Assembly (NCBI RefSeq): GCF_900100335.1
Contig: NZ_FNFE01000002.1
Span: 248,001 to 312,000, forward strand
Direction of reading: 5' to 3'
Length of the DNA: 64,000 bases
Source: Natronorubrum texcoconense
GTDB lineage: Archaea > Halobacteriota > Halobacteria > Halobacteriales > Natrialbaceae
Below, in pieces: positions 7,069-60,907 of the stretch. The notes under the pieces are model-generated. The model saw only the letters and a list, made by a program, of their open reading frames with translations. It was not told where the DNA came from and did no database searches. Every line of letters begins with the position of its first letter. Position 1 is the stretch's first letter. The position numbers were made by a program, and so were the translations under genes.

Positions 7069-9852
7069 ATGACGAAACACTACGATCACGCGCAGGTCCA
7101 GGAGTTCTGGCAGTACGTCTGGGAGCGCGACGACGTTTACACGTTGGCCGAGGACGCCGAAGACCCGACCTACGTGCTCGGGATGTTTCCGTACACCTCC
7201 GGGACGCTCCACATGGGGCACGTTCGAAACTACGCGATCACCGACGCCTACGCTCGGTATCGCCGCATGCAGGGCGACGACGTCCTCCACCCGATGGGCT
7301 GGGACGCGTTCGGACTCCCCGCGGAAAACGCGGCGTTCGAGCGCAAGACCGATCCCCGCTCGTGGACGGAGGCCTGTATTCGTCGGATGCGCGAGGAACT
7401 CGAGACCATGGGCTTTGGCTACGACTGGTCTCGAGAGATCACCACCTGCGAGCCCGCGTACTACCGGTGGAACCAGTGGCTGTTCAAGCGCCTCTACGAG
7501 GCGGGTCTCGTCGAGTACGAGGCCGCGTCGGTCAACTGGTGTCCCGACTGTGAGACGGTGCTTGCGGCGGCGCAGGTGGAGGAACGCGAGGTCGAGCGAA
7601 GCGAGACCTCGGAAAGAGCGAGCGGCGACGCCGCGAGCAGCGGGCACGAACGGAGTGAGACCTCAGGTCGAGAGAGCAGCGGCGCTGCGGATCACGAGCA
7701 CGAACGGGTCTGCTGGCGCTGTGAGACCCCCGTCGGCCGGCGCGAACTCGATCAGTGGTTCTTCACGATCACCGACTACGCGGAGGAGCTCCACGACGAT
7801 CTCGAGGCCCTCGAGGGCTGGCCCGACGGCGTCCGCGAGATTCAGCGCAACTGGATCGGTCGGCAGGAAGGGACTCGTATCTCGTTCGAAGTGGCGGACT
7901 ATAGCGAGGGGGCGGTTGACGTCTTCAGCACTCGTCCGGAGACGGTCTACGGCGCCACGTATCTCGCCGTCTCGCCGGGCCACGATCTCGCGCGGGAACT
8001 CGCCGAAACGGACGACGACGTCGCGGCGTACGTCGACGCGGTTCGCGAGCAGGATCCGAGCGAGGTCGGGTTCACGGGCGTCGAGACGGACGCGACGGCG
8101 ACCCATCCGCTCACCGACGAAGAACTGCCGGTTTACGTCGCCGGCTACGTTTTAGAGGACGTCGGCACCGGGGCCGTCATGGGCGTCCCCGCGCACAACG
8201 AGCGCGATCACACGTTCGCCGCGGAACACGACCTCCCGATCGAACGGGTCGTCATTCCCAGTACCCCGGACGAACGAACCAGCCTCGAGGACGGCCCCTA
8301 CACCGACGACGGCATTCTCGAGCACAGCGGCGAGTACGACGGGCTCGAGAGCGACGTCGTCCGCGAGCGGGTCGTCGCCGAGCACGACGCGCTGACGGAA
8401 GACGTCACCTACCGCCTGCGCGACTGGCTGATCTCCCGGCAGCGCTACTGGGGGACGCCGATCCCGGTCGTCCACTGTGAGGACTGCGGACACGTCCTCG
8501 TGCCCGACGAGGAGCTTCCGGTCGAACTGCCCGAGTTCGTCCGGACGACGGGGAACCCGCTCGAGGCCCACGACTCCTTCCGCGAAACCGAGTGTCCCGA
8601 CTGCGGCGGCCCGGCCCGGCGCGAGACGGACACGATGGACACCTTCGTCGACTCCTCGTGGTACTTCCTGCGATTCCTCTCGCCACAGCTCGAGGACGCG
8701 CCGTTCGACACCGAGCTGGCCGACGAGTGGCTGCCGGTCGACGTCTACGTGGGCGGCGAGGAACACGCCATCCTCCACCTGCTCTACACGCGATTCTTCA
8801 CGAAGGCGCTGGCCGACCTGGATCTGCTCGATCGGCGCGAACCGATTACGGAGCTCAAGAGTCAGGGGACGGTGCTGTACGACGGCGAGAAGATGTCCAG
8901 TTCGAAGGGAAACGTCGTCGCCCCACAGGAGTACGGCGCGGAGACGACGCGGCTGTTCGTCCTCTCGGCGGCCCATCCCGAACAGGACTTCGAGTGGACC
9001 GCGAACAACGTCCGCGGCGCCTACGATCTTCAGCAGACGCTGTACGGGATGGCTACCGCGTTCGTCGCGGAAGGCGATACGCGAGTCGAGCGGTTGGATC
9101 ACGACGAGTACATCGCCCGCGAGATCGACCGAACGATCGCCGCGGCCACCGAGGAGTACGACCGGTTCCGGTTCCACCGGGCGGCCACGGAGATTCAGGA
9201 ACTGGCGCGAGTGCTTCGGCGCTACCGCGAGTACGACAGGCCACACGGCGAGGTCTACCGCCGCGGGCTGTTGGCGCTGGCCGCGCTGATCGCGCCGATG
9301 GCGCCCCACCTCGGCGAGGAGTGCTGGAACAAACTCCGGGGCGACGGCCTGGTCGTCGAAGCCGACTGGCCCGAACCCGAGACCGAACTCGAGGACTACC
9401 GACGCGAGCGCCAACTCGTCGAGACCACCCTCGCGGACGTTCGGGATATCGTCGACACCGCCGCGATCGACGATCCGGAACGGATCGAACTCGTCGTCGC
9501 TCCGGCGTGGAAGTACGACGTGCTCCGAATCGCAGCCGACTACGCCGACGAAGAGCTCGCGGACGGCGATCCCGGTTCGCTCGTCGATCGAGTCCTCGAG
9601 ACCGACGCCGTGGCCGAACTCGCGGTCGGCCGCGAACCCGTCGCGACGTTCGTCACCGATCTAGCCGGCCGGGACGACCGCGCGGATTTCGAGTCCGTGC
9701 TCGCAGCAGCCGACGAACTGGCGATCTTAGAGCGCAGTAGCTGGCTCGTCACCGACGAGTTCGACGCCGATGTCGTCGTCCGCAGTGCGAGCGACGACGA
9801 CGAACTGGCAGCGCGGGCACGACCGGGAAAACCCGCGATCCGGATTCGGTAA
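7069..9852 (+). CDS. leuS: Leucyl-tRNA synthetase, bacterial type
   Basis: 927 residues. It charges tRNA-Leu with leucine in the cytoplasm. The class I signatures are HMGH (48-51, in YTSGTLHMGHVRNY) and KMSSS (608-612). The block HPMGWDAFGLPAENAA and the editing-domain segment HPLTDEELPVYVAGYVLEDVGTGAVMGVPAHNERD follow the bacterial LeuRS pattern. Zinc-knuckle cysteine pairs are seen (CPDC and CWRC; CEDC and CPDC). Between the first two pairs, residues about 174-211 form an S/E/G-rich insert encoded by palindromic DNA. The C-terminal region after the anticodon-binding domain is long. Haloarchaeal LeuRSs of bacterial origin with archaeal-style tails have been reported, and this one fits. It is a single gene with its own promoter region. 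Confidence 0.96.
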   Translation: MTKHYDHAQVQEFWQYVWERDDVYTLAEDAEDPTYVLGMFPYTSGTLHMGHVRNYAITDAYARYRRMQGDDVLHPMGWDAFGLPAENAAFERKTDPRSWTEACIRRMREELETMGFGYDWSREITTCEPAYYRWNQWLFKRLYEAGLVEYEAASVNWCPDCETVLAAAQVEEREVERSETSERASGDAASSGHERSETSGRESSGAADHEHERVCWRCETPVGRRELDQWFFTITDYAEELHDDLEALEGWPDGVREIQRNWIGRQEGTRISFEVADYSEGAVDVFSTRPETVYGATYLAVSPGHDLARELAETDDDVAAYVDAVREQDPSEVGFTGVETDATATHPLTDEELPVYVAGYVLEDVGTGAVMGVPAHNERDHTFAAEHDLPIERVVIPSTPDERTSLEDGPYTDDGILEHSGEYDGLESDVVRERVVAEHDALTEDVTYRLRDWLISRQRYWGTPIPVVHCEDCGHVLVPDEELPVELPEFVRTTGNPLEAHDSFRETECPDCGGPARRETDTMDTFVDSSWYFLRFLSPQLEDAPFDTELADEWLPVDVYVGGEEHAILHLLYTRFFTKALADLDLLDRREPITELKSQGTVLYDGEKMSSSKGNVVAPQEYGAETTRLFVLSAAHPEQDFEWTANNVRGAYDLQQTLYGMATAFVAEGDTRVERLDHDEYIAREIDRTIAAATEEYDRFRFHRAATEIQELARVLRRYREYDRPHGEVYRRGLLALAALIAPMAPHLGEECWNKLRGDGLVVEADWPEPETELEDYRRERQLVETTLADVRDIVDTAAIDDPERIELVVAPAWKYDVLRIAADYADEELADGDPGSLVDRVLETDAVAELAVGREPVATFVTDLAGRDDRADFESVLAAADELAILERSSWLVTDEFDADVVVRSASDDDELAARARPGKPAIRIR
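7588..7688. repeat. Palindrome-rich insert inside leuS
   Basis: Three perfect hairpins lie in about 100 bases of coding sequence. GAGGTC/GACCTC (7588-7610) has the 11-nt loop GAGCGAAGCGA. GCGGC/GCCGC (7622-7634) has a 3-nt loop. GCAGC/GCTGC (7676-7688) has a 3-nt loop. The frame is kept open and translates to an S/E/R/G-rich loop between zinc-binding cysteine pairs. The same two hairpin types recur near the tRNA-Gly island. Confidence 0.75.
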
Positions 9853-55081: not shown

Positions 55082-55152
55082 GCGCGGGTGGTCTAGTGGC
55101 AGGACCTGAGCCTTCCAAGCTCATGGCCCGGGTTCAAGTCCCGGTCCGCGCA
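55082..55152 (+). tRNA. tRNA-Gly (anticodon UCC)
   Basis: 71 nt. The cloverleaf is complete. The acceptor stem GCGCGGG pairs with TCCGCGC (last pair G-T), followed by discriminator A and no encoded CCA. D stem GTCT/GGAC; anticodon stem TGAGC/GCTCA with loop CTTCCAA, anticodon TCC; T stem CCGGG/CCCGG with loop TTCAAGT. It reads GGA and probably GGG codons. Its 3' end is copied three more times in the next 6 kb, marking it as an integration target. Confidence 0.95.
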
Positions 55153-55396
55153 CTTTTCGAGGAACGGACGTGACGAGAAAATGCGCGAGAGGGATTTGAA
55201 GCACGCGAGTCGCAGCGTCCGAACGAAGTGAGGACGACCGTCTCGCAGTCGGGTTCAAGTCCCGGTCCGCGCATTTCTGTCGCGAGCAAACTCGCGAGCG
55301 ACAGCAATCGTACGAGGGGCTTGAAGTAGAGAAGTCGCAGCGCGTGAGCGAAGCGAACGCGACCGTCTTCGCGTGGTTCAAGTCCCGGTCCGCGCA
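55153..55396. repeat. Two tandem 121-123-bp units ending in copies of the tRNA-Gly 3' end
   Basis: The core TTCAAGTCCCGGTCCGCGCA occurs at 55133-55152 (in the tRNA), 55254-55273 and 55377-55396, spaced 121 and 123 bases. Each unit also carries GTCGCAGCG, a hairpin, and CGACCGTCT. The hairpins are CGTCC/GGACG (55216-55236) and CGCGT/ACGCG (55341-55361), with 11-nt loops GAACGAAGTGA and GAGCGAAGCGA. The stems differ but both pair. The copies are pseudo-att sites, not functional tRNAs. Confidence 0.8.
55277..55310. repeat. 34-nt repeat with hairpin, left copy
   Basis: Identical to 60954-60987. It contains TCGCGAG-CAAA-CTCGCGA, a perfect 7-bp stem with a 4-nt loop, flanked by CTG and CAGCAATCG. 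The paired copies at the two ends of the island extend the att duplication. Confidence 0.8.
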
Positions 55397-55599
55397 CACG
55401 CAACTCCGTTATCGCGGATATTCCGACCGAGAACCGGCACATGAGCTGGTACACGATCCGCCACTCTGTCGGGACCTACATGACTCGAGAAGAGGACCTG
55501 GCCGCTGCACAGGCACAGCTTCGCCACAAGAGCCCTGAGACGACCATGCGGTACGATCAGGCTCCGGTCGAAAATCGCCGAGGCCGCTCAACAATGTGA
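55397..55599 (+). pseudogene. C-terminal remnant of a tyrosine recombinase (integrase)
   Basis: The open frame reads NSVIADIPTENRHMSWYTIR, then HSVGTYM, then LAAAQAQLRHKSPETTMRYD, with a stop at 55597-55599. It retains the HxxR-type region (WYTIRHS), the LRHKS motif and the nucleophile tyrosine of TTMRYDQ, which are the end of haloarchaeal phage-type integrases. The frame enters directly from the third tRNA-Gly 3' copy at 55396, so the N-terminal three quarters are missing. The only internal ATG (55441) would give 52 residues. It cannot be an active enzyme. The abutment with att sequence may reflect an integrase gene split at its own attachment site. Confidence 0.8.
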
Positions 55600-55649
55600 C
55601 TATTGAGCGTCCACGTACTTGGTTCGTGCATACAGAGTATAGTCTATTA

Positions 55650-55680
55650 CTTGGCCAAGAGGCATACCACTACTTGGTAT
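55650..55680. promoter_or_regulatory. Palindromes upstream of the restriction-modification gene
   Basis: CTTGGCCAAG (55650-55659) is a perfect palindrome, and ATACCA-N5-TGGTAT (55664-55680) a perfect inverted repeat. Both lie about 110-140 bases before the RM start, in AT-rich DNA. They could be operators that limit expression of the nuclease; no controller gene is seen. Confidence 0.4.
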
Positions 55681-55788
55681 AATGAGTGTTACAGAGTAAC
55701 CACGAATTACTCTCTTACCAGCAGGTTTGGAAATCGTCGTGTGAGTGAACCATACCCTTTTTGACCTACTACTGTCTCGGGACAATCC

Positions 55789-58700
55789 ATGACCGACGCT
55801 GCCGAGTTCGTTGATATTCTCTACGGGATCTCGGAACGGATCAACGAGGAGATGAGCGAGAAAGACGTCGAAAACGCCTATCTCAACGAAGGATTTTACA
55901 ACGATCTCGGCTACCGGGGAGCTGGCTACGATCTCCGTAGCGAGTGGTCTCTTCCTGATAACCGACGCCCGGACTACGTCACGCTCGACGAGAACGAGTC
56001 AGTTACAGCTGTCTACGAGTTCAAGACATCGGGCGAGGATCTTGACTCACACACTGATCAGCTGTTCCACTACGTCGATGTGCTGAAAGCGGATTACGGT
56101 GTATTAACAAACGGAGAGGAATTCCACTTGTATCGACGGGACGGGAGCGGGCCACTTCTCGAACTAACCCTTGCCGACGCGACCGAGGCCCACGCTCGAG
56201 ATTTAATCGCTGCGCTCGAGAAACCGGACTGGGATATTACGAACCCCGAGAGCGTCAACGACTATCTGACTGGTCTCGATCCGGTTGGACTCGACAGCGA
56301 ACTGGGTCAAGAGCACTTCTTCGATACCTTCCGGTTGGAAGAGGGGAGTCCCTTCGCCGACCTCGTCGTCGCTTCGATGGATCTGCTCGAGGAGCTACGC
56401 GACGGGCAGGAAGCCAAGTTCGTGAAAGGCGCGTACGACTTCTGGGATGCCAGCTACGCCAGCGAACCGGACGAAGTCCCCGATTCGTGGGACACGTTCG
56501 TCGATGGTAACGGCGATCTCAAGGACTTCATGTTCTGCCTCGAGAGCGGGCACGCCCTTCTAGCCCGGTTACTGCTCGCCAAGGCGACGGAGGATCACGA
56601 CTTCTTCCCGGATGATCGCGGTCTCCGACGCTACTTTGACGAGTTGCAGGGCTTCAGTGACGAGATCAACCTCGACGCCTATCCCGTCGCAGCGAACGGG
56701 CTGATGGAAGATATGCACCAGCAGCTCGTGGAGAGCCTCTTCGAGGACGACATCTTCATCTGGTGGACGGACGGCTACCAGGAGGAGACGTCTCGGCTCC
56801 ACGCCAACCCGTACAATCGTTTCCGCGACGTTGCCCAGGAAGGCAGTAACATCACTCGAGTCAGTCCTGCGACCAAGGAGCGGTTCAGCCGTGCAATTGC
56901 TCACGTCTTCTTCTCGGTGTTGAAGTTCGATTTCGCCGCTATCGAAGGCGACCCGCTGGGCGATCTGTACCAGCGCTATTTCGACCCAGAGACGCGCAAG
57001 GCACTCGGGGAGTTCTACACCCCACAGCCGGTGATCGAGTACATCATGGACGGCGTGGGGTACGACGTCGGTGTCTCGAACGAGCGACTGATCGATCCCT
57101 CGTGTGGGTCGGGGACCTTCTTGGTGGAAGCCGTGAATCGGTATCTCGAGGACGTCCGTCGCTACGAGGACGATCCCGATTGGGAAGAGCATCTAACGGA
57201 GCTATGTACTCGACCCCGTATCGTCGGTCTCGACATTCACCCCTTCGCAGTCCTGATGGCACAGATTCGGTTCATGGTCGCGATCCTGCCTGAATATCGT
57301 AATGCCAAACGTCAGAACTCTTCGTTTACGATCCGCCGGCTTCCGATCTTCCGTACGGACACGCTGCGGAACGAGCGTGAACTGACGGGCACCGATCTCG
57401 GTGACGACGGAAGCAAGCAGATGACGTTCGAGGCACTGACCGAGGACGAGCAGGACGTTTTGGTCCCTGTTCCGCTCCCCGTTGAGGTTGATAACGAGGA
57501 CGTCCCCGAAACAGAGCGTGACGGAGACTTCTTGCTCCAACGAGTTCGGATGCCTAAGTTCGATACGATCCGTTTGGAAGCAGGAGTCCCCAATTTCGGA
57601 GAGTACTTCGCTGCGCTTCAGGGTGTCCTCGACGTGGTAAAGTACCACATGACCGAAAGCCTGTGGGAATACCACGGTGGTCTCGAGGAAGGGGTCAATC
57701 GTTACACCTCACAGGAGTACGAGGGTATTGAGGAGTTTTTTGAACCGTATGTAGACAACATCCTCGAGACAGTGCAGTATCTCCGGGAGGAGCATGGAGA
57801 CGGGCGGCTGTTCAAAATGTTCGAGGACAGCGTTCTCGCACTCGTCGTGAAGAACTACATGGAGTACGAGTACGTCGTCGGAAACCCGCCATACGTTCGT
57901 ATCCAATATCTCCCCGACGATCAGAAGGAGTACCTCGATACGCTCTACGATTCCGCGACCGGGAATTACGATCTCTACTGCCCCTTCTATGAACGTGGCT
58001 TAAACTGGTTGACAGAGGGAACTGGGAAGCTTGGGTATATTACGCCGAATCAGTTTATGGTCACCGATTACGGCGAGGGTCTTCGAGAAGTCATCTTAGA
58101 ACGATCACAGATCAACGAAGTTTACGACTTCCGCGATTCGGGCGTTTTCGAGGACGCGACGAACTATCCTGCAATTCTCATTCTCGAAGACGAATCAGAC
58201 GAGTCGGCTCGAGAAGAAAACGATGTTCGCTGTGTCCGAGTAAAAGCAAACGTAGACGACGACAGTGGCCGTGAATTAGATGAAGCAATCATCAAGTCTG
58301 TCCGCGATCATCGGAGAGACCCAGGCTACAGTGATGATTATATCGATGTATTCGATTTTCCCCAGAAAGAGCTTGACGATGGCTACTGGGCACTCATGCC
58401 ACCGGAGGAGTTACAAGTATTCAACAAGTTAGAGGACAAATGCGACAAGAAAGTTGAAGATATTACTGATGCAGTGTTCCAAGGTATCCGAACCAGCTCA
58501 AACAAGGTGTATATTGTCGATGTACTTGATGCAGACAGGGTTGAATCGAGCGATGAAGGAGAAACGGTCACTGTTGCACCCATTGGTGGATCTGGCGAGT
58601 TTGAAATCGAGACCGATCTTTTGCGCCCGTTCCTACAGGGTGACGAAGTAACTCGTTGGCGAGGAGATTGGTCTGGGTTACACGTTGTCCACCCCTACTA

Positions 58701-59667
58701 TGCTGAAGAGGTAAACGGAGAACTCAAATCGGGGTTGTATTCGCAAGAACACCTTCAAGAAAATCTTCCGAAAACATGGGACTTCTTCTTAGCCCACAAG
58801 GAAACGCTTGAGAGTCGTGAAGGTGGGCGTAAAGAAGGCGAGGAAGATTGGTACGGATACATCTATCCCAAGAACTTAGGTAAATTTGAGGTCCCTAAGA
58901 TCATCCAAGCCCATATCTCTGAACACGCCGCGTTCATGATCGATGAGCAGGGCACATGGTATTTCACAACCGCCTATGGCACTCTTCTGACCTCTGAATA
59001 TCGTGACTTAACAGAAGAGATCGCGTGTGAACTCAATTCGAAGGCTCTTGACTATTATTTCAAGCATATTACAACAGTCAAGGCAGGAGGATACTATGAA
59101 TATCGTTCACAATATGTTGAAAAACTCCCATGCGTGACAAACGGAACGGAAGATCAATTTACTACATTACGAGAGACAGCCAGCGAGATCACTAATGTGA
59201 TTGATTTGGAAAGCAAGACGGAAAGGTTCCCTGAGGCATATCTGGGAGACTTCGATGGGGAACTCGAGTATATCGACTATGAGTGGCAGACTCGACGGTA
59301 TCCCGTGAACGCCAGCGTAGACGAAATTGATGACGACCGCTTCGCTGTGACCGCAGGAAGGTCTGACGAGATCACTGATCCTCGGATGGAAGCCTCTACG
59401 AAGGATGTGCGAGAGCAGCGAGCGAAGTATGTTCACGCCGCAGTAGATGGTCGTAAGGTGAAGAAAGGCGAAGAGACTTCGATACCGATCCCGCGTGACG
59501 ATGACGACGTACTGGCGCTTCTTGACCGATGGGAGACGGACAAGCAGACCGTGGAGGAAACGAATATCGAAGAACTCGAGGCAGAGATAGACGGGACAGT
59601 GTATGATCTCTTCGATCTTACCGATGAGGAGCGCAAAGTGATCGAGGACTACTTGGAAGTGTTCTAA
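55789..59667 (+). CDS. Type IIG-like restriction-modification protein (nuclease, N6-adenine methylase, specificity in one chain)
   Basis: 1292 residues. The N-terminal nuclease has a PD-(D/E)xK site: D62 (RRPDYVTLDENE), E77 and K79 (AVYEFK). A helical spacer (about 200-380) follows. The gamma-class methylase has motif X-like GEFYTPQPVIEYIM, motif I DPSCGSGTF (from D436), and motif IV NPPY (699-702). Target recognition occupies about 880-1180 (EELQVFNKLEDKC, then GIRTSSNKVYIVD, then AYGTLLTSEY and YEYRSQYVEKLP, as in TaqI/Eco57I-type C-terminal domains). It should methylate adenine and cut near its site. DNA recognition sequence unknown. All catalytic motifs are intact. Confidence 0.9.
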   Translation: MTDAAEFVDILYGISERINEEMSEKDVENAYLNEGFYNDLGYRGAGYDLRSEWSLPDNRRPDYVTLDENESVTAVYEFKTSGEDLDSHTDQLFHYVDVLKADYGVLTNGEEFHLYRRDGSGPLLELTLADATEAHARDLIAALEKPDWDITNPESVNDYLTGLDPVGLDSELGQEHFFDTFRLEEGSPFADLVVASMDLLEELRDGQEAKFVKGAYDFWDASYASEPDEVPDSWDTFVDGNGDLKDFMFCLESGHALLARLLLAKATEDHDFFPDDRGLRRYFDELQGFSDEINLDAYPVAANGLMEDMHQQLVESLFEDDIFIWWTDGYQEETSRLHANPYNRFRDVAQEGSNITRVSPATKERFSRAIAHVFFSVLKFDFAAIEGDPLGDLYQRYFDPETRKALGEFYTPQPVIEYIMDGVGYDVGVSNERLIDPSCGSGTFLVEAVNRYLEDVRRYEDDPDWEEHLTELCTRPRIVGLDIHPFAVLMAQIRFMVAILPEYRNAKRQNSSFTIRRLPIFRTDTLRNERELTGTDLGDDGSKQMTFEALTEDEQDVLVPVPLPVEVDNEDVPETERDGDFLLQRVRMPKFDTIRLEAGVPNFGEYFAALQGVLDVVKYHMTESLWEYHGGLEEGVNRYTSQEYEGIEEFFEPYVDNILETVQYLREEHGDGRLFKMFEDSVLALVVKNYMEYEYVVGNPPYVRIQYLPDDQKEYLDTLYDSATGNYDLYCPFYERGLNWLTEGTGKLGYITPNQFMVTDYGEGLREVILERSQINEVYDFRDSGVFEDATNYPAILILEDESDESAREENDVRCVRVKANVDDDSGRELDEAIIKSVRDHRRDPGYSDDYIDVFDFPQKELDDGYWALMPPEELQVFNKLEDKCDKKVEDITDAVFQGIRTSSNKVYIVDVLDADRVESSDEGETVTVAPIGGSGEFEIETDLLRPFLQGDEVTRWRGDWSGLHVVHPYYAEEVNGELKSGLYSQEHLQENLPKTWDFFLAHKETLESREGGRKEGEEDWYGYIYPKNLGKFEVPKIIQAHISEHAAFMIDEQGTWYFTTAYGTLLTSEYRDLTEEIACELNSKALDYYFKHITTVKAGGYYEYRSQYVEKLPCVTNGTEDQFTTLRETASEITNVIDLESKTERFPEAYLGDFDGELEYIDYEWQTRRYPVNASVDEIDDDRFAVTAGRSDEITDPRMEASTKDVREQRAKYVHAAVDGRKVKKGEETSIPIPRDDDDVLALLDRWETDKQTVEETNIEELEAEIDGTVYDLFDLTDEERKVIEDYLEVF

Positions 59668-59694
59668 TACGCAGTATCAGCGGAACACGACGAG

Positions 59695-60426
59695 TTATCG
59701 AAGCTCGTTCAGACACAATTCTTCGATCGATGTCTCGTATATTGGCACCACTCCGAGCCGGCTATAGAACTCATCAATGAGTTGGAGAACGGATTGGGCA
59801 GCCCACTCTGCATAGCCGTGACTGAAAAACTCGAAGAGAGGAGCGTTACTGTACGGGTTCTTTGCCGCTTTTCCCTGTAGAGCGCCCTGAAGGCTCTGAT
59901 ACTCACCGTAGGTAGGTGTATCTCCGATCTCTGCCTGAGTGGTTACGTACTCCGGCTTTGCGTGGATGGCCTGGTTCCGAAGCTTCGTGACGATACTGGC
60001 GTTCTGGTACGGGTTCTGGTGTCTGGTGAACACTGGCGAACCCGAGAACTCGAGGATCTTGTCGTACTTCTTGGGAACCTTTGCATAGATGAAGCTACAG
60101 TCCTTCTCGTCGTAGATCGATTTGTACTCACTTCGAATGTTACTCTGTACTTGTTCTACGTCGAACTCGTATCGCTTCATAGCCGGCGTTCCTTGCTCTA
60201 TATCGAAGATGACGGTGTTTGCTACTGACTCGAGCAGAGCAGCTGAGGAGATGATACACCCTGCTGATTTAGCGGTGTATTCCATCTTCACTGGTTCGGA
60301 CGGCTTCTCGCTCTGATCCGCTTCGATCTGTTCGACGTCACGGAGTAAGCTATCCATCAAGTACAGCGGCCACTTCCAAACAGTGGTCCGAACGTGTACA
60401 TCGACGCTGTCATCAACGGCGACCAT
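59695..60426 (-). CDS. Unknown protein with HEPN-like RNxxxH motif, convergent to the RM gene
   Basis: 243 residues, soluble. No family is recognised with confidence. Helices near 55-80 (AGCIISSAALLESVANTVIFDI) resemble the first long helices of HEPN domains. The sequence IVTKLRNQAIHAKPEY contains R150-N151-x3-H155, the Rx4-6H signature that forms the RNase site of HEPN toxins and defence proteins. Two late helical segments (PLFEFFSHGYAEWAAQSVLQLIDEFY) complete an all-helical impression. It ends 27 bases from the RM gene in convergent orientation, inside the island. A defence or toxin role is inferred, not shown. Confidence 0.6.
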   Translation of the reverse strand: MVAVDDSVDVHVRTTVWKWPLYLMDSLLRDVEQIEADQSEKPSEPVKMEYTAKSAGCIISSAALLESVANTVIFDIEQGTPAMKRYEFDVEQVQSNIRSEYKSIYDEKDCSFIYAKVPKKYDKILEFSGSPVFTRHQNPYQNASIVTKLRNQAIHAKPEYVTTQAEIGDTPTYGEYQSLQGALQGKAAKNPYSNAPLFEFFSHGYAEWAAQSVLQLIDEFYSRLGVVPIYETSIEELCLNELR

Positions 60427-60859
60427 AGGTAGTGATTGATCCGTAACCTGTTAGTGGCTCGGTCTGGCTCAAGAAGGTAGCCTACATCACACTGCATCTA
60501 TTCCTTGCCAGCAGTCATTCACTGAGTACAATTAAGACAGTAAGAGGGAAGACAGCCTTCTCGATCGGGTGATTGTAGAACATCATTGCTCAGTGATGAG
60601 AGTCACTGGTTGACCTACTCATGTCGCTCTACACAGCGTACAATAGACCACCGAATTTCATCTGACGAGCCTTCTCGGCCTAAATAGCACACTCGGTATA
60701 GTTGAAGCGTGAAATCAACTGACCTCACGTAAGCCAGCGGCTCACGTCGTGGGTCTTTATAATTGTAGATCAATAGTACTGAGCTGGGAACCACGAAAAC
60801 ACGCCAAATTGCGCCGTGAAGGCATCTAGGGCACGAAATCGGCGTCACAGCGGCCTGCT
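60427..60859. other. Intergenic end of the island, no gene seen
   Basis: About 430 AT-richer bases without a convincing frame. The minus-strand frames ending in the tRNA-like sequence are artefacts. It may hold the promoter of the HEPN-like gene and decayed island sequence. Confidence 0.4.
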
Positions 60860-60900
60860 GCCTTCCAAGCTCATGGCCCGGTTCAAGTCCCGGTCCGCAC
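60860..60900 (+). pseudogene. Degenerate 3' half of tRNA-Gly (right att remnant)
   Basis: Matches the tRNA-Gly gene from the anticodon stem-loop (GCCTTCCAAGCTCATGGCCC) to the 3' end, with one G missing in the T stem and a CG missing in the acceptor strand. No 5' half is present, so it cannot fold as a tRNA. Position and content fit an attachment-site duplicate of an earlier integration. Confidence 0.85.
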
Positions 60901-60907
60901 ATTGTTT

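Follow-up and report, generated by a model that had tools for sequence, protein, structure and literature searches.

Covarying hairpin elements with duplicated tRNA 3′ ends downstream from tRNA genes of Halobacteriales: candidate structure-recognized cassettes

The elements described here have partial likenesses to several known systems. CRISPR arrays and casposon targets have a repeat–insert–repeat organization and grow beside a fixed leader-like end. Casposons use tRNA 3′ ends. Integron attC sites are imperfect palindromes with an unpaired central spacer, extrahelical bases and a variable terminal structure, and one of their strands is favored (PMC8946536). The usual targets of archaeal integrases are tRNA genes, and the att duplications of tyrosine-integrase elements of the SNJ2 and SSV types leave an intact tRNA beside a duplicated tRNA 3′ end (PMC8371274). 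REP/BIME sequences and the haloarchaeal MITE, PATE and SMR elements are small, noncoding, intergenic palindromic repeats, with many copies per genome, and haloarchaea have many palindromic elements that lack a transposase (PMC3119063). Finally, d(GCGNAGC) minihairpins with GNA or GNNA loops belong to a class of extraordinarily stable DNA structures (Hirao 1994 and Yoshizawa 1997, as cited in PMC4686876).

The window is a stretch of 64,000 nt from the genome of Natronorubrum texcoconense (G000), in which an earlier note had pointed to three hairpins at unrelated loci, with differing, perfectly paired stems and a nearly fixed 11-nt loop. All three hairpins are indeed present on the plus strand: one in leuS (stem CGAGGTC, 7587–7593; loop GAGCGAAGCGA, 7594–7604; stem GACCTCG, 7605–7611), and two near 55 kb, in what we term cassette A (CGTCC, 55216–55220; GAACGAAGTGA, 55221–55231; GGACG, 55232–55236) and cassette B (CGCGT, 55341–55345; GAGCGAAGCGA, 55346–55356; ACGCG, 55357–55361). 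The loop is conserved, but it is not simply single-stranded; it folds into a helix of its own, in which positions 3 and 9 covary, and reads GA-RC-GNA-GY-GA, where two covarying pairs separate a GNA triloop from tandem GA/GA mismatches. The sequence CGCGC GGATCGGAGCGGA GCGCG at 1210–1232, proposed as a distant member, does not fit this pattern and was rejected, and the loci at 55216 and 55341 are not unrelated, because they are tandem copies of one element. The leuS hairpin (7587–7611) shares the apical motif but not the rest of the element; it is a relative in shape only. It lies in a linker insertion of the reading frame, where its stem is also coding. Among the congeners (G001–G009), G003 and G006 retain the hairpin with a G-C to A-T change at the inner pair that is compensatory and leaves both codons synonymous, and G001 retains it with the inner and closing pairs changed, while in G002, G004 and G007 the stem pairs imperfectly or is disrupted; only some of these between-species changes are compensatory.

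The two hairpins near 55 kb are the tips of a structured element of ∼70 nt, which is part of a larger unit linked to tRNA-Gly. The tRNA-Gly(TCC) gene is located at 55082–55152 on the plus strand (ARAGORN, which gives 55082–55153, and the Rfam tRNA model), and its last 20 nt, from the T-loop to the discriminator (TTCAAGTCCCGGTCCGCGCA), occupy 55133–55152. On the same strand, cassette A consists of a spacer hairpin (hp1, TTTTC..GAAAA, 55153–55181), which belongs to the spacer-hairpin family whose wobble pairs are considered below, an inverted T-loop arm (GGGATTTGAA, 55191–55200) complementary to the T-arm copy, and a core at 55208–55243 (AGTCGCAG, CGTCC, GAACGAAGTGA, GGACG, ACCGTCT), which includes the hairpin at 55216–55236 and on which covariation and the folding of the sense strand as RNA and as DNA agree. 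A first direct copy of the tRNA-Gly 3′ end, identical in 20 of 20 nt, follows at 55254–55273. Cassette B, also on the plus strand, has the spacer hairpin CTGTCGC-GAGCAAACTCGCGA-GCGACAG, which again contains GA/GA (55277–55304), an inverted T-loop arm (GGGGCTTGAA, 55316–55325), a core at 55333–55368 (AGTCGCAG, CGCGT, GAGCGAAGCGA, ACGCG, ACCGTCT) that includes the hairpin at 55341–55361, and a second direct copy, identical in 20 of 20 nt (55377–55396). The core of cassette B is the best match of our covariance model in G000 (89.8 bits), cassette B being itself among the sequences used to build that model. The element is closed by the inverted T-loop arm, which pairs with the direct copy of the tRNA-Gly 3′ end; through pairing with the T-loop of the next copy, each unit would form one long imperfect hairpin.

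The array is split by a separate integrated island of ∼5.5 kb (55397–60901), which has its own, longer att copy. The island contains a Phage_integrase C-terminal remnant of 66 codons (55399–55596), an Eco57I/type IIG-like restriction-methylase (55789–59667), and on the minus strand an ORF without a Pfam match (59695–60426). Its right attachment site, at 60860–60901 on the plus strand, is a copy of the tRNA-Gly 3′ half starting at the anticodon loop, and the sequence beyond it resembles the region past the array in G003. No linked transposase or RNA-binding protein, for which a search had been suggested, was identified, and the integrase remnant is the only recombinase nearby. That a real island and an integrase remnant adjoin the array, and that archaeal integrases usually target tRNA genes (PMC8371274), could suggest that the units are fossil att sites, in which repeated integration and loss by tyrosine integrases left the tRNA 3′-end copies, homologous recombination and gene conversion among arrays preserved and shuffled the rest, and the hairpins have no present role. 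All downstream copies in G000 have the T-loop variant TTCAAG in common, which indicates that they were homogenized or are recent, as gene conversion would give. However, true integrase att copies begin at the anticodon loop, while those of the units begin at the T-loop, and, different from tyrosine-integrase elements, the insert of a unit is only ∼100 bp long, noncoding and structured, with core families that recur across tRNAs. The att duplication of a tRNA-targeted integrative element is thus present, while an encoded integrase is not, as units of 77–206 bp are too short for one. Moreover, functionless relics should not retain compensatory stems and fixed mismatches, and the units are present at many different tRNAs across the order. 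As this explanation accounts for the tRNA copies but not for the covariation described below, we consider it unlikely.

To describe the apical motif, base-by-base statistics were obtained for 1.66 of the 4.64 Mb (36%) of G000 (C2, 1–1.2 Mb; C3, 1–240 kb and 248–470 kb). On both strands of this sequence there were 89 GARCGNAGYGA loops, 17 of them with a stem of at least 4 bp and 12 with a perfect stem of at least 5 bp, while only 119 of 42,909 other GA-N7-GA loops had a stem of at least 5 bp (odds ratio 56, Fisher p = 7e-17). Eight Markov-1 genomes contained 38–54 such loops each, none with a stem of at least 5 bp, and no similar stem excess was found for alternative triloops or flanks in the same 1.66 Mb. 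Hence, the genome scan gave matches far above a background of like composition, which was the comparison that could have refuted the earlier note. At loop positions 3/9 the 89 sites had G-C, A-T, G-T and A-C in 46, 21, 8 and 14 cases, and 91 tRNA-linked hairpins in 41, 47, 3 and 0 cases, respectively. The base 5′ of GA was a pyrimidine in all 91 tRNA-linked hairpins, and it was paired in 90. A pyrimidine in this position is a context that favors sheared G.A pairs. The stem enrichment, the covariation and the pyrimidine context together indicate that the apical motif is a specific structure rather than a mere string. Genome-wide, 27 of 35 GA hairpins lie between genes, even though a home-made gene prediction assigns 84% of the genome to genes. 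The stems are short (5–7 bp) and lie in a repetitive, GA-rich style of sequence, as could be expected of chance palindromes or of the compositional bias of a GC-rich genome; this explanation is refuted by the stem enrichment, the empty Markov genomes, the covariation controls and model matches that are found throughout the order and not outside it, and its probability is negligible.

To survey tRNA genes, we searched the 400 nt downstream of each gene for a second occurrence of its 3′ end with at most 3 mismatches in 20. Such copies were found for 17 of 28 tRNAs in G000, 17 of 29 in G019, which is of a different genus and has up to three of them at a tRNA, and 3 of 30 in G037, from another family, while the upstream control gave 1, 0 and 0, the single case being a neighboring tRNA repeat. 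The same architecture was found behind other tRNAs of G000, and about 60% of its sampled tRNA genes adjoin such an element together with a duplicate of the tRNA end. The pooled loci, in which the window-type core is over-represented because several were fetched for their resemblance to the unit in the window, comprised 183 units with a mean length of 113 nt (range 77–206 bp), often in tandem. An inverted T-arm with at most 2 mismatches in 10 was present in 166 of the 183 units, compared to 5 for shuffled arms. Along the tRNA strand, each unit comprises, in this order, the 3′ end of the tRNA, a spacer hairpin, the inverted T-loop arm and the conserved core; the tRNA portion is the 20 nt from the T-loop onward (TTCRAAT...discriminator), and the core combines internal loops that are unpaired with a variable stem, on which tandem GA/GA and a GNA triloop form the cap. 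In the commonest core family the variable stem with its GNA tip lies between AGTCGCAG and ACCGTCT, while other families have ACCGAGGTTCTGC..GCAGGTTCTCGG or CAGTCGCGCGCAGCG..GAGCACGTCTG. The units lie at most ∼60 nt from the tRNA 3′ end, and their orientation relative to the tRNA was constant in ∼50 tRNA-adjacent units. At one locus, tRNA-Ser(TGA) of G009 (L111), the core is inverted between the T-arm repeats, the only such unit seen.

The intergenic position of hairpins with mismatches in sets of two, the presence of some cores away from tRNAs, and the many transposase-free palindromic elements of haloarchaea (PMC3119063) are also what would be seen if the units were REP-like, nonautonomous palindromes of an IS200/IS605-type (HUH Y1) transposase that acts on single-stranded DNA hairpins. 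Such elements, however, make no target duplication (PMC3119063), while each unit adds a 20-nt tRNA copy, and IS200/IS605-derived PATE or REP elements are likewise distinguished by the absence of a duplication, which every unit has by construction of the survey. Different from REP/BIME and MITE/PATE/SMR sequences, the units also combine this duplication with conserved internal loops, freely covarying stems and tRNA-matched arms, and no transposase or TnpB gene was recognized near the cores inspected, as judged from their translations only. Hence, a REP-like origin is very improbable.

Several further observations concern cores and insertions outside the typical arrangement. Cores away from tRNAs, without a T-arm, were seen at L150, L165, L172, L149/L192/L214 and L209; those at L150 and L165 are in sense orientation immediately after a stop codon, the two genes concerned being similar, and in Haloparvum a non-tRNA core is present in three near-identical copies. 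In G000, a longer intergenic repeat (CACGTGCGGTGGCGCGCGCTG...) with GA/GNA hairpins of differing stems occurs at C2:680300-680480 and C3:362000-362350, while an identical hairpin stem, TTTGACT/AGTCAAA, occurs at C2:693505 and C2:707436, 14 kb apart and beside similar gene ends. In G001 and G023, units are separated by gene-containing stretches of 2.4 and 3.3 kb, respectively, of which the one in G023 ends like an ordinary tRNA-Gly integrative element. A tRNA-Gly integrative element of G023 (L269, C11) contains a heavy-metal P-type ATPase-like gene, and its right att copy is broken by a hairpin unit exactly at CCCGG|GATTTGAA..core..GTCGG|GTTCAAATCCC.

The pairing was analyzed in 33 gap-free cores selected by conserved ends and length, not by pairing. 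The data showed that 98.9% of cells were paired, compared to 88.2% after shuffling, and that 41 cells were changed on both sides, compared to 10.8. In an alignment of 21 full elements, in which the 3′ arm is the tRNA's own and the unit copies match it within 4 of 20 nt, 13 of 23 pairs were changed on both sides, including all seven apical and four T-arm pairs; 96.5% of cells were paired, while slid structures reached at most 47%, and the observed covariation score was reached by none of 500 shuffles, a control that ignores relatedness. This covariation, beyond that of both shuffled and slid controls, supports the conclusion that the element is a structured nucleic acid under selection. Selection, or copying that recognizes the structure, had been proposed from the stems of the three hairpins; the stems of the larger set covary far beyond shuffles, and core families are shared across tRNAs and genera. 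The T.T mismatch, the CAG/AC internal loop and the tandem GA/GA remain unpaired across units, which argues against a simple copying that corrects palindromes.

The polarity of the units is strong, as 91 GA/GNA hairpins are on the tRNA strand and 2 on the opposite strand. Folding programs returned the same structure for the sense strand as RNA and as DNA, unit A folding better than shuffles with z = −2.6 for RNA and −1.8 for DNA, while the antisense strand folded less well against shuffles. The spacer hairpins contain 10 G.T and 0 A.C combinations (p = 0.002), and the apical alignment of the 33 cores 8 G.U and 0 A.C. A cruciform with both strands folding equally should give equal numbers, so this bias is rather what RNA, or DNA folded as a sense single strand, would show, with transcription-linked deamination as a possible confounder. 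The automatic counts for core hairpins (G.T 8, A.C 8) were disregarded, because A.C cells arise there from the conserved CAG/AC internal loop, and wobble counts for the T-arm helix and its extension were unusable, because one side is almost constant. The sense polarity, the excess of wobble pairs, the better z-score as RNA, the position close to the tRNA 3′ end, and the sense orientation of the L150 and L165 cores just past stop codons could all be explained by a structured 3′ trailer cotranscribed with the tRNA, or by a small RNA that is processed to end at the second tRNA 3′ end; such an RNA might have a role in tRNA processing, termination or protection, and the DNA would be no more than its template. 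On the other hand, the loops comprise 131 GNA triloops and 20 GNNA, compared to only 4 GNRA tetraloops, a choice that favors DNA, as in the stable minihairpins (PMC4686876). The units share with d(GCGNAGC) the RC-GNA-GY tip, while they are natural and genomic, and stand on a tandem GA/GA step with its invariant 5′ pyrimidine. A function in RNA alone would also leave unexplained the duplication of the tRNA 3′ end, the ABAB arrays and the presence or absence of units between congeners described below, and non-tRNA intergenic GA hairpins have no clear sense bias (about 9 same and 5 opposite). We therefore regard a trailer RNA as a serious possibility, though one well short of probable.

Comparison of the same tRNA-Gly locus in ten congeners showed that the composition of the array differs. 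It contains types A and B in G000, B in G001, G004 and G006, C with a decayed B in G002, C in G003 and G007, another type in G009, and a decayed B without a tRNA copy in G008, while G005 has none. On the simplest reading of these sequences, cassettes would be inserted beside the tRNA, duplicating its 3′ end, with older ones displaced outward, where they decay. Arrays of G019 have the orders ABAB and ABA. Among 90 very similar pairs of cores, 34 are from the same tRNA (4.4 expected) and 56 from different tRNAs; for example, a core at tRNA-Ile of G000 and one at tRNA-Gly of G019 score 94%. The cores have spread across tRNAs, while the arms and tRNA copies stay local. No foreign tRNA 3′ ends were found inside the arrays surveyed, although hopping of whole cassettes predicts them.

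When the covariance model was built and scanned as had been suggested, it matched 35 places in G000 at E ≤ 1, the E-values being rough, and 17 of 18 sampled Halobacteriales genomes, with 3–25 matches per genome, while 102 other genomes of the same phylum gave none. G135, the one genome of the sampled Halobacteriales that the model did not match, also had few first-look candidates, which makes it a helpful negative in the search for an enzyme. Among the matches listed from a pattern scan of 84,980 species, there were tRNA-adjacent units in Haloferax, Halorubrum, Natrinema, Halovivax, Haloarcula and others, while the exact bacterial matches among those listed had no tRNA context and look like chance. 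Rfam 15 gave only tRNA families and one weak sub-threshold match for 16 unit-bearing loci, and nothing for 9 loci with non-tRNA cores. Viral carriers were rejected, as of two pattern matches on viral contigs one fell in a coding region and the other in a repeat array, and neither was accompanied by tRNAs. The phage search gave no unit, its sole result being a weak match to a single E. coli phage, and the plasmid search gave a 24-nt match in a Haloarcula plasmid and no unit save one on an 827,667-bp replicon of N. bangense, probably a chromosome-like exception. No description of the element was found in the open-licence literature, and "not described" is meant provisionally.

Taken as a whole, the best-supported statement is that the hairpins are tips of a cassette recognized by its structure, and a role as trailer RNA is nearly as good. 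We tentatively favor, at somewhat less than an even chance, the reading that these folding cassettes, often in tandem behind tRNAs throughout Halobacteriales, are recognized on the sense strand by a recombinase or transposase in an attC-like manner. The sense single strand, exposed in tRNA transcription or replication, would fold, and the putative enzyme would recognize it and act at the border G|TTCRAAT; the cassettes would then behave like attC sites for which the tRNA T-arm serves as the attachment site. This reading is favored by the locus-specific tRNA copies downstream, the inverted T-arms, the two-sided pair changes and the fixed orientation, by the turnover at tRNA-Gly with older B pushed outward, the ABAB arrays and the cores shared by different tRNAs, and by the loop choice of DNA minihairpins and the attC-like shape. 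It is disfavored by the lack of an enzyme near the array, of an established gene-bearing cassette, and of foreign tRNA 3′ ends in arrays, by the failure to find it on viruses, phages or, one probable chromosome-like replicon aside, plasmids, by the tRNA-free cores without a T-arm, and by the excess of G.T over A.C, which fits RNA at least as well.

The likeness to integrons is one of shape, polarity, array topology and breakpoint, and not of homology. The units resemble attC in shape only, as imperfect hairpins with an unpaired spacer, extrahelical bases, a variable tip and one favored strand; the arrays are likewise tandem, fixed in orientation and apparently growing at one end, and the breakpoint likewise follows G and precedes TT. 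On the other hand, the breakpoint G|TTCRAAT has C in the fourth position, where the attC crossover consensus GTTRRRY has R, so that GTTCAAA departs from it, and no integrase was identified; for these two reasons we do not classify the units as an integron. They also differ in having no established cargo genes, in arms that are local to each tRNA, and in an attachment site that would be the tRNA T-arm. Different from CRISPR arrays, their inserts are one conserved structured family rather than varied spacers. It is conceivable, with slightly less confidence than the recognition itself, that they form a new class of mobile or regulatory element: cargo-free, noncoding cassettes defined by a folded single strand, which would spread between tRNA genes and species of an archaeal order, duplicate the 3′ end of the tRNA they join and build integron-like tandem arrays.

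If these conclusions are right, most sampled tRNA genes in two genera, and tRNA genes across the order, bear an unannotated structured element. If the units are cassettes, archaeal chromosomes would contain a recombination system of folded single-stranded DNA, which would have implications for how integron-type recombination arose and for the question why insertions cluster at tRNA genes. If they act as RNA, haloarchaeal tRNA transcripts would carry a hidden structured trailer. Both possibilities are directly testable in model haloarchaea.
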